From assembly GCA_022827095.1 (NCBI GenBank), contig JAJDTP010000013.1, positions 1 to 62,472 of the forward strand: a DNA stretch of 62,472 nucleotides. Direction: 5' to 3'. Below are positions 48,297 to 51,473 of the stretch, piece after piece (within the stretch, counting starts at the first letter, position 1; every line of letters begins with the position of its first letter). The DNA comes from Dehalococcoidia bacterium (GTDB lineage Bacteria > Chloroflexota > Dehalococcoidia > Lucifugimonadales > UBA3495). The notes under the pieces are model-generated. The model was given only the letters and a program-made list of their open reading frames with translations. It was not told the origin of the DNA and did not search any database. The position numbers and the translations under genes are program-made.

Positions 48297-51200
48297 CTAC
48301 CGGCTCAGCATCTCGCGCAGCATCCCGGTGGGGACGCGCCAGAGATATTTGGGGCCAACGAATGAACTGCCCTTGGTGCGTCGCTGGTACGAGACGGGAA
48401 CTTCCCGCATCCGCATGCCCTTTTTGAGCAGGTCCAGAGTCAGCACCTGGGCGTAGTTGTAGTCGTGGATGATCTCGGCGCACTCTAGCGCCCGGCGGGA
48501 GAAGGCCCGGAAGCCGGTCTGCCCGTCGGTAATGCGCCGCCCGGCTGCCAGGTTGAGTGCCGCGGTAAACGCGACATTTCCGATGCGCCGGAAGGCCCGT
48601 TGGTCGGGGCTATTCTTCAGGTAGCGTGAGCCCAGGACATAGTCGGCGTCGCCGGACTCAATAGGCGCCAACAGGTCGGGAATCTGCTCCGGCGCGTATT
48701 CGCCGTCGGCGTCCACGTACACCGCAGCCCGGGCGTCCAACTCGTTGGCGGCGGCCAGGCCGGTGCGCAGGGCAGCGCCCAAGCCCCGGTTGCCTTGGTG
48801 CGATACGACCACGTCCGCGCCGTGCTGGCGGGCGATTTCGGCCGTCTCGTCGGTCGACCCATCGTCCACAACGATCACCCTTAGTTCGGGTCGCTGCTGG
48901 CGAGGTATCCGTGCCAACGTAGACGGCAGGTTCTCCGCTTCGTTGTACGCCGGCACGATCACCGCCACGGGTCGGGTCGACTCATCCGCGTCGGGAACGC
49001 CGAGCACCTGTCCGACGGACTGGGCCGGTGGTTCTACGCCGAGGTAGTAGGCGATGGTGGCGGTCACGTCCATCACGGAGCGCGGCGTATCCACCGGCCC
49101 GACCAATTGCACTCCCTCTCCCCACATGATGCAGGGCACGTATCGCTCCGTCGGGCCCATGTGGCCGTGCCCGCCGATGCCGATGCCCTGGCCGTGGTCG
49201 GCGGTAATCACCACCGTCGCCCCTTCCAGGTACCCGACCGAGTCGCACCACCCCAGAAAGTCTTCAATATGTCGGTCACTGTCCTCGATCTTGGCCAGGT
49301 ATTCGGAGTTGTAGCTGCCCCGGGCGTGGCCGGTCTGGTCAACGCTCAGCAGTTGCAGGATGAGCAGATCCGGGTCATCCCGCTCGACGACCGTTTTGGC
49401 CCTTGCTTTCAGCGCGTCGTCGATCTCATCGTTGTTCGTGACCGCCGTCACGGTTTCCAAGTCAGTCTCGCCAAACGCGTCCACCAGGTGGGCGATGCCC
49501 ACCAGCTTGCCGGTGAGGCCGCCGGCTCGCAGCGCGTCGAATATGGTTTCGCACTTGACGCCCAGGCTGGGCACGAAGTTGCTGGACATCCCGTGGACGC
49601 GGGGCGGTGCGCCCGTGAACATGGAACTGAACCCGGTGACCGTGCGGGCCGGGTATACGGTGGAGGTATCGATGTAGTCGACGCCCTCCTTGCGGATTTT
49701 GTCTATGAATGGGGTGTCTGCCTCTTCCAACCGGTCGAATCGGCACCCGTCAATGACGATGGTGATGAACCGGCGGGAAATTCGCTGCCCGGGGACAGCC
49801 CGTAGTCGAGTAGGCACCAGCGACGGGGCGGGAGGCCAGGTGAAGAACCACTGGTGCAACAGCAGGGCAGTGATCGCGACGCCTACCGTGAACCCTTCCA
49901 CGGCCACGAGAGTCCAGATCGCTGGCTGCTCCACCATGATCTGAAAAGCGAGGATCAGGATCGCCAGTTTGGGAATCTGCTCGAGGAAATTGCCGCTGGT
50001 GGGGTCCGGATTCTCCAGCACCAGCCGCCAGAAGCGAGTGAAGTTGAACCAGGACGTGCCGATGCGCAGGTGGTAATAGATCGTCCCCCACAGAACAATG
50101 GTGAAAGTCAGGTAAACGCCCAGGAGGAGACCGATCGCTATAACGTCGAAAAACCGGAACGCTGCCAGAAACACACCGAGATATGCCCATAGCGCTATGC
50201 GCAATTTCAACGGGAAGTCGAAACGGTAAAAGACGACGAACATGGGAGCCAGCGCCAACAAGGCAAGGCCGGCGCGCGGCCAGTAACCTCCGTCGGTGAG
50301 GTGAGGGATGCTCAGCAGCGCCAACAACCCCAGCGTGAACACGGGCGTGAAGGGTTTGCCCTCGTTGAGCACGTTCCAGGCCCGGGCCGCGAAGATTTCA
50401 AACCGCGAGGCGTGCTTATCGCCCTCCGCTGAACCCCGCAGGGCGCCCAGACCCCAGGTGGGAACCAGGTCACGTACAGCAACCAGCGTGAATGCGGCTG
50501 CCAACGTGTAGGAATAGGCGAACTTGAGGCCGTGGGTGAGCACCGCCAGCGCCAGCCCCTCTTCCCACGGGATTCCCAGGGCGTACAGGACGCCGGTCAT
50601 GCTGGCTTCGTACACTCCTATTCCGCCCGGGGTCACGTGAAACACCTGGAAGAGGATGGTGAAGGCGGTTACCGCAATGGCGGCGGAAAGGGAGATTTCG
50701 GTCCCCAGGGCTTGGGCCGCGACCAGGAGGACTCCGGCCTCCAGGATCCAGCTCGGCAGAGTCCACAGCGCCGCTAGTCCGATGCGACCCCGCGACATGA
50801 GCGCGAGCTCGGCTCGCAGGGTGTCCAACCTGCCGCGAAGCGGCCGCGGCATCAGGACATCAACCGACCTAAATCGCAGCAGGGTGACCGCCAACGCCGC
50901 AGCGAGTACCACTGCCACCGGTATGGCGAGGCCGCGCAGCCAATCGAGCCGTGCATCGAATGATGCGACCAACGCTCCGAACGCGGCCGCGATGATAATC
51001 AACGATGCGAAATCCAGCAGGCGCGCTACAGCAGTCGAGGCGGCGGCCTCAGTCAGGGGAATACTCCGCCGCGCGGCCAGCAACGGTCGCGCCGCCTCGC
51101 CCAGCTTGAACGGGAGCAGGTGGTTGGCCAGGAGCGCCGCCTGCAGGTAAGTGAACAGGTCAAAAACGTTTGCGCCTCCGGCCACCAGGTGGCGCCAGGC

Positions 51201-51473
51201 GAAGGATCTCAGGACGAACGCGCCCGTATAACTGACCAGCAGCAAACCGAGCAGTTCAGGTCGGACCACGAGGACGCGCAGCGCGACCGGCATTTGGCTC
51301 CAATCGGCGAGCCACCACACCAACAGCCCGATGGCGACGGTAAGCGGCAATCCGATACCGATACGCAGCGCGGCGCTTCGACCGGAAGCGCCCAACAATG
51401 AACCGGAGCCGGTGTGGATCGATTCAGCTCCGTGTTCGCCCTGGTTTGGTCGGTAGGATTCCCGCATCGTCAT
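48297..51473 (-). CDS. Triple fusion: LPG-synthase-like TM domain, phosphatase-superfamily domain, GT2 glycosyltransferase
   Basis: 1058 aa. Residues about 30-330 form a multi-span domain of the LPG_synthase_TM/UPF0104 type ([35 protein letters not shown]). More spans lead to an alkaline-phosphatase-superfamily domain ([33 protein letters not shown] with the Thr nucleophile, [19 protein letters not shown]). The last 230 residues are a GT2 transferase of the dolichyl-phosphate mannosyltransferase type ([51 protein letters not shown]). The start at 51473 is chosen over TTG 51566 because coding character begins there. First gene of the leftward operon, 20 bases before the FEA1-like gene. Confidence 0.85.

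Follow-up and report, generated by a model that had tools for sequence, protein, structure and literature searches.

The closest described systems are the three-component glycosylation pathways GtrA-GtrB-Gtr, CsbB-GtcA-YfhO and C. youngae ORF12-14-15, in which a GT2 transferase resembling dolichyl-phosphate-mannose synthase (DPMS), a flippase and a GT-C enzyme act together. Phosphatases have a precedent in such pathways in C. youngae and in mycobacteria, with folds other than that of the NPP enzymes, and in C. youngae the phosphatase domain is fused to the carrier-charging enzyme of the three-component system (PMC11127046). UPF0104 proteins are predicted to act as flippases in glycosylation, and archaeal AglD carries GT2 and UPF0104 in one polypeptide (PMC5898192). 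UPF0104 flippases also serve glycolipid pathways such as gpgSDF, the flippase role again being a prediction (PMC12713373).

The window (the whole stretch of 62,472 nucleotides that was analysed, from a Dehalococcoidia bacterium) contains a single gene in which a flippase-like domain, a phosphodiesterase-like domain and a GT2 domain are joined. The module to which it belongs has the DPMS-like GT2 in common with the three-component systems, and a putative flippase and a GT-C-like protein are the probable counterparts of their other two members. It differs from them in having a dispensable UPF0104 flippase in place of GtrA or MATE, in that its phosphatase is an NPP-type domain carried on its own six-helix membrane (6TM) block, and in being tied to iron uptake and Fur and partly fused. 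Compared with AglD, the order of GT2 and UPF0104 is reversed and an extra 6TM-NPP unit lies between them. The flippase domain is homologous to the LPG_synthase_TM domain of MprF, while the aminoacyl-transferase (synthase) domain of MprF is unmatched, with no Pfam match to it within the 1058 residues. The iron-uptake systems EfeUOB, FTR1-FEA1 and FbpABC are neighbours of the module, and a glycosylation module was not found described as one of their components. Likewise, a search for papers connecting glycosylation with FTR1, FEA1, LPG_synthase or AP fusions turned up no description in the literature covered, which included few subscription papers. The pathway logic appears to be that of known three-component glycosylation; what is new is an obligate enzyme, 6TM-NPP, and a putative iron regulon.

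The fused protein and its parts

The gene and its domains are as follows, with the evidence in brackets:
48297..51473 (-), fused protein gene, 1058 aa, stop codon included (ORF, Pfam, AlphaFold)
50505..51338 (-), flippase-like domain (LPG_synthase_TM / UPF0104), residues 46-323 (Pfam; a separate gene, family c4, in Bacillota and Rubrobacter)
49779..50420 (-), six-helix membrane block, residues ~352-565 (AlphaFold, conservation, positive-inside rule)
48993..49778 (-), NPP/PafA-type alkaline-phosphatase-superfamily domain, residues 566-827, with a full active site (Pfam, structure comparison, alignment)
48300..48971 (-), GT2 domain, residues 835-1058, dolichyl-phosphate-mannose synthase/ArnC-like (Pfam, structure comparison, alignment)

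The reading frame is uninterrupted across 1058 codons from an ATG at 51473, and an alternative upstream start (TTG at 51566) would lengthen the protein by 31 residues. A sequence-only reading of the window had proposed a true fusion of three domains rather than a frame artefact, and all three were recovered by Pfam far over cut-off: LPG_synthase_TM at residues 46-323 (2.2e-36), Phosphodiest from residue 570 (3.3e-23) together with Sulfatase at 585-813 (2.7e-13), and Glycos_transf_2 at 838-998 (8.7e-32). That domain list was correct as far as it went, but it missed the 6TM block between the flippase and NPP domains. The gene is a genuine fusion. An assembly join or frameshift was ruled out because the same full-length fusion occurs on contigs of other Dehalococcoidia assemblies and because AlphaFold is confident over the whole chain (mean pLDDT 87.4, pTM 0.72).

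The 6TM block spans about 210 residues and has no Pfam match. It forms six transmembrane helices in two AlphaFold models (pLDDT 89.8 and pTM 0.84 for the block alone) and is strongly conserved, many polar residues on its cytoplasmic loops being invariant. Against the PDB, Foldseek produced nothing below E 0.001 and VIA-align reached Z 3.9 at best; as neither search yields a useful match, a new fold is not claimed. The block goes with the phosphodiesterase domain as one unit, 6TM-NPP.

In the NPP domain, D575, T611, N632, D712, H716, D759, H760 and H771 are kept in every aligned homologue long enough to cover them. They include the six metal ligands, the Thr nucleophile and the Asn of NPP / type I phosphodiesterases, so that the domain is predicted to be a phosphodiesterase with a complete active site. 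The structure of residues 561-828 is closest to PafA (Z 27.5), ENPP7 (26.7) and Xac NPP (26.5), and a phmmer search with the Bacillota 6TM-NPP protein returned ENPP1 and snake venom phosphodiesterase. The domain shares its fold (Z 26-27.5) and the complete set of catalytic residues with the NPP/ENPP and PafA enzymes. Unlike NPP/ENPP, it is predicted to be cytoplasmic, sits on a 6TM block and is obligately paired with a GT2. The NPP and ENPP enzymes known so far lie outside the cytoplasm.

The predicted location rests on several features. The NPP domain runs into GT2 without an intervening membrane helix, and GT2 enzymes of the DPM1/ArnC-like type draw on cytoplasmic nucleotide sugars. Across 46 homologues, the mean numbers of Lys and Arg are 4.1/0.6/4.1/3.0 in the predicted cytoplasmic loops and 0.2/0.5/0.3 in the outside loops, which by the positive-inside rule predicts six helices with both termini inside and the NPP domain on the side of GT2. 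Because of this, both catalytic domains are predicted to lie in the cytoplasm, side by side.

Divergent relatives of 6TM-NPP (~37% identity, with altered metal ligands) occur in four Bacilli loci (L126, L127, L128 and L129), in which no GT2 was found. Three of them (L126, L128 and L129) have lost NPP residues and adjoin a degenerate UDP-glucose dehydrogenase remnant. These relatives are possibly pseudoenzymes with another role.

In GT2, D921, D923, D983, Q985 and R989 are invariant in the alignment, within DAD and D-x-Q-x-G-x-R motifs. Residues 831-1058 superpose on DPMS (5mlz) with Z 26.4 and 29% identity, and both fold and residues liken the domain to DPMS, ArnC and GtrB, which suggests a polyprenyl-phosphate sugar synthase.

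Fused and split modules and their iron-uptake neighbours

A scan of GTDB genomes yielded 80 loci, and the locus counts given here cover 81. Full-length fusions (51-72% identity) are found in nine Dehalococcoidia loci (L033, L034, L037-L041, L052 and L067). The parts are three separate neighbouring genes in Bacillota and Rubrobacter, in the same order as in the fusion and mostly overlapping or a few nucleotides apart (flippase ~310 aa, 6TM-NPP ~490 aa, GT2 ~250 aa). Close relatives are therefore fused and distant ones split, rather than all close relatives having separate genes. In the 6TM-NPP tree the fused sequences form one clade adjoining Rubrobacter, and one change suffices for the fusion. 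The module was present in 51 of 299 sampled genomes of Bacilli, in 15 of 296 from Actinomycetota and in 1 of 400 from Chloroflexota, and it is known from some 25 Bacillota genera. Within the family of the window, 6 of the 36 genomes searched carry it (the window counted), with frame breaks in at least two of the six.

GT2 adjoins 6TM-NPP in 81/81 loci, and a GT-C-type protein is found in 77/81. A flippase (UPF0104 protein or domain) is present in 71/81 and missing in 10, among them Chengkuizengella, Ammoniphilus, two Paenibacillus, Geobacillus proteiniphilus and two Rubrobacter. In L035, which is 88% identical to the window, the flippase part is gone from the fusion while the upstream region is retained; at 5700-6000 of that locus the loss reads as an in-place deletion. 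Since the flippase is missing in several separate lineages, it is a replaceable or dispensable member of the set. No GtrA/SMR- or MATE-type flippase was matched in the proteins scanned.

The neighbours of the fused gene in the window are:
45607..48276 (-), FEA1-related lipoprotein with two repeats, 20 nt after the fused gene (NF038033, 3.8e-50; lipobox)
47665..47844 (-), linker within the FEA1 lipoprotein, rich in Thr, Ser and Gly and a candidate acceptor for O-glycosylation (composition)
44361..45569 (-), ferric-iron-binding lipoprotein of FbpA/HitA type (7w3w, 7.4e-76)
42880..44364 (-), polytopic GT-C-like protein with a GDEP motif, overlapping the FbpA gene by 4 nt, family c16 (NF047440, 2.7e-6, under its cut-off)
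41881..42954 (+), NAD-dependent nucleotide-sugar epimerase transcribed towards the operon (convergent), a conserved partner of family c6 (homology and conservation across loci)
51684..51697 (no strand), palindromic site TTAGTGTCCACTAA of the divergent promoter region, with a DtxR/IdeR-like core (motif scan, suggestive only)
52147..53403 (+), imelysin lipoprotein, divergent neighbour (PF09375, 7e-67)
53375..54874 (+), di-haem oxidoreductase (PF06537, 1.6e-98)
54874..55968 (+), second imelysin lipoprotein (PF09375, 7.8e-40)

The fused gene is followed by the genes for the FEA1-related lipoprotein, the FbpA/HitA protein and the GT-C-like protein. The likely start of the FEA1 lipoprotein is the Met of MTKVRYH, within a longer ORF (45607-48483). 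Its match to NF038033 reaches 170.8 bits over two stretches, under the curated cut-off of 250, which makes it a relative of that family below equivalog level. The Bacillota and Chloroflexota FEA1-like lipoproteins match at 98.5% in a profile-profile comparison.

The module is associated with iron uptake in three phyla. An iron-uptake gene is present in 71/81 loci; in the other 10, none was found within the locus DNA examined, and some contigs end there. Bacillota loci carry FTR1/EfeU in 57 of 61 cases (FTR1 match 4e-36) and the FEA1-like lipoprotein in 52 of 61. The Rubrobacter module runs divergently from the genes for FbpA and FbpB, for FTR1, or for both. Between its GT-C and 6TM-NPP genes, L144 carries a complete EfeU-EfeO-EfeB set and L146, L148 and L149 carry EfeO and EfeB (Pfam confirmation of the Efe assignments covering L144 and L146). 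No FTR1 was found in the genome of the window. The transporters vary between phyla; the glycosylation genes are constant. Gene order is reshuffled among Bacillus, Paenibacillus and Rubrobacter, and the set is kept together.

Regulation was studied with the Bacillus Fur box consensus (TGATAATNATTATCA), allowing three or fewer mismatches or at most one; candidate sites at module genes are given by TGATAATCATTATCA. With three or fewer mismatches, the FEA1-like gene has boxes ahead of it in 39 of 49 loci, at a density 16-fold that elsewhere. With at most one, there are 92 boxes, of which 81 are located no more than 350 nt upstream of a module gene, Paenibacillus with its different order included, and boxes also precede the starts of reshuffled modules. 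These sites support the predicted regulation of the Bacillota module by iron. The sequence-only reading had linked the fusion to an iron lipoprotein and a GT-C enzyme in one operon, a link borne out by the Fur boxes of Bacillota and by the way this set recurs beside iron-uptake genes across three phyla.

In the window itself, the TTAGN6CTAA palindrome occurs once, 224 nt before the fused gene, and the promoters of five further fused genes in Chloroflexota have it too, three of these loci being closely related among themselves. Its reading as a DtxR-like box is only suggestive, because the motif was picked after inspection of the sequences, the other five sites in the genome are not at iron genes, and none was found in the Rubrobacter loci. 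No riboswitch or known RNA was found upstream of the fused gene, and a weak ar14 match was attributed to chance.

The GT-C-type families c2 and c16 are polytopic and have weak matches, none over cut-off; only c26, from Rubrobacter, matches PMT_2. A UDP-glucose dehydrogenase is part of the module in some loci. The Bacillota epimerase is near 6zl6, a UDP-glucuronate 4-epimerase, and also near 5u4q, and that of the window is nearest to GalE-like entries, so that reading the identity of the sugar from the epimerase was dropped.

Linkers with 40-57% Ser+Thr over 40 residues, built of TG/SG or ETTS repeats, are present in the FEA1 lipoproteins of the window, L034, L035, L041 and L052, in one FbpA (L036) and in the EfeO of two Rubrobacter loci (L146 and L148). 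The medians for other gene families in the loci are 16-28%, and the linkers are weak or modest in most Bacillota lipoproteins. A PMT-like GT-C could use such linkers.

Proposed pathway and alternative explanations

The explanation we favour, and consider fairly probable, is that the Dehalococcoidia protein fuses the conserved three-gene core of a pathway for extracytoplasmic glycosylation under iron control, made up of GT2, 6TM-NPP, a flippase, a GT-C enzyme and an iron-lipoprotein acceptor. Working at the cytoplasmic face, GT2 would load polyprenyl phosphate with the sugar of a nucleotide sugar, as its fold and residues suggest. On the same predicted side, 6TM-NPP would act on a membrane-bound phosphate intermediate of the pathway, the first choice being phosphodiester or pyrophosphate hydrolysis at the lipid carrier, for example by freeing polyprenyl phosphate for GT2 or trimming a lipid-linked phospho-sugar. 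The UPF0104 flippase would turn the product over; where it is absent, the 6TM block or another flippase would have to do so instead. On the outside, the neighbouring GT-C would then transfer the sugar, most likely onto linkers rich in Ser and Thr in the FEA1, FbpA or EfeO lipoproteins of the same locus, or alternatively onto a neighbouring envelope component. Glycosylation had been proposed from the sequence alone as a possible purpose, and both the domains and the gene context support it well; sugar and acceptor are putative. The phospho-modification of the outer envelope proposed along with it is not favoured, given the predicted cytoplasmic NPP domain and the lack of a helix before GT2. More tentatively, and with somewhat less than even confidence, the loci may represent a four-component glycosylation induced by iron starvation in three phyla, in which 6TM-NPP performs an undescribed polyprenyl-phosphate sugar step at the cytoplasmic face and the targets are the EfeUOB, FTR1-FEA1 and FbpABC lipoproteins.

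The step assigned to 6TM-NPP could instead involve no lipid, the NPP domain cleaving soluble nucleotides (UDP-sugar or by-product UDP) near GT2 so as to remove product or control flux. Two nucleotide pyrophosphatases, ENPP and Xac NPP, are among its closest solved folds (Z about 26), the phmmer matches to ENPP1 and snake venom phosphodiesterase agree with this, and the domain is predicted to share the cytoplasmic side with GT2. It is however always found on the 6TM block, whose many invariant polar residues on cytoplasmic loops go beyond the needs of an anchor, and PafA, ENPP7 and other fold mates use other phosphate esters; we regard this role as unlikely but plausible. Rather improbable is a pathway whose product is not a glycosylated lipoprotein but an envelope polymer or glycolipid, such as an iron-binding uronic-acid glycan or a glycosylated phospholipid. 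It would fit the work of UPF0104 flippases in glycolipid pathways (gpgSDF, PMC12713373), the modest Ser/Thr linkers of most Bacillota lipoproteins, and the epimerase and, in some loci, UDP-glucose dehydrogenase, which make an acidic sugar possible; yet the most constant neighbours are the GT-C-type protein and exported iron proteins, and the iron lipoproteins of several loci carry Ser/Thr-Gly repeats.

An enzyme like EptA, LtaS or PbgA, with its NPP domain outside and transferring a phospho-group to the envelope or a lipoprotein, is suggested by a Foldseek alignment of 6TM and NPP with PbgA/YejM over about 540 columns (6v8q, 4e-9), but the query-length TM-score is low (0.21) with an rmsd of 17. 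The predicted topology speaks against it as well, since no helix separates the NPP domain from a GT2 needing cytoplasmic nucleotide sugar and the loop charges of the 46 homologues place the catalytic domain inside; it was rejected as very improbable. We give almost no credence to the fusion and the iron linkage being an accident of gene order devoid of functional meaning: the module is indeed rare and patchy in Chloroflexota (1/400 sampled genomes) and decayed or frameshifted in some relatives, but the set stays together through the reshuffling seen in Bacillus, Paenibacillus and Rubrobacter and Fur boxes precede the reshuffled starts too, which already contradicts this explanation.

If the favoured glycosylation pathway is correct, bacteria from Bacillus to Chloroflexota would make a dedicated lipid-linked sugar at iron shortage, beside their high-affinity iron importers, and protein or envelope glycosylation would be tied to metal capture. 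The obligate partner of the probable polyprenyl-phosphate sugar synthase is an uncharacterised, strictly conserved membrane enzyme, 6TM-NPP. Direct testing is possible because Bacillus, Geobacillus, Paenibacillus and Exiguobacterium, all cultured, have the split version.

Other features of the loci

One Dehalococcoidia genome has a second copy of the whole module (L153, G022 C3:298000-311000), a decayed duplicate in which 6TM-NPP, FEA1 and GT-C are broken into frames. Frame breaks in the fused gene near 8793 in L036 and at 6001-7870 in L051, both single-contig assemblies, reflect either long-read errors or decay. At its C-terminus, a Paenibacillus FEA1-like protein (L044, 11923-13407) has a domain of the copper amine oxidase N-terminal type (PF07833, 2.5e-22). 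Adjoining the imelysin/di-haem oxidoreductase cluster of the window, beside the iron lipoproteins, is a bacterial gamma-carboxylase-like enzyme with HTTM and vitamin-K-dependent gamma-carboxylase lumenal domains (55965-57323 (-); 1e-65 and 3e-47). The window also contains a tmRNA gene at 38265-38620 (+) (Rfam RF00023, 117.6 bits) and a gene for a WD40 beta-propeller protein of 372 aa at 58379-59497 (-).
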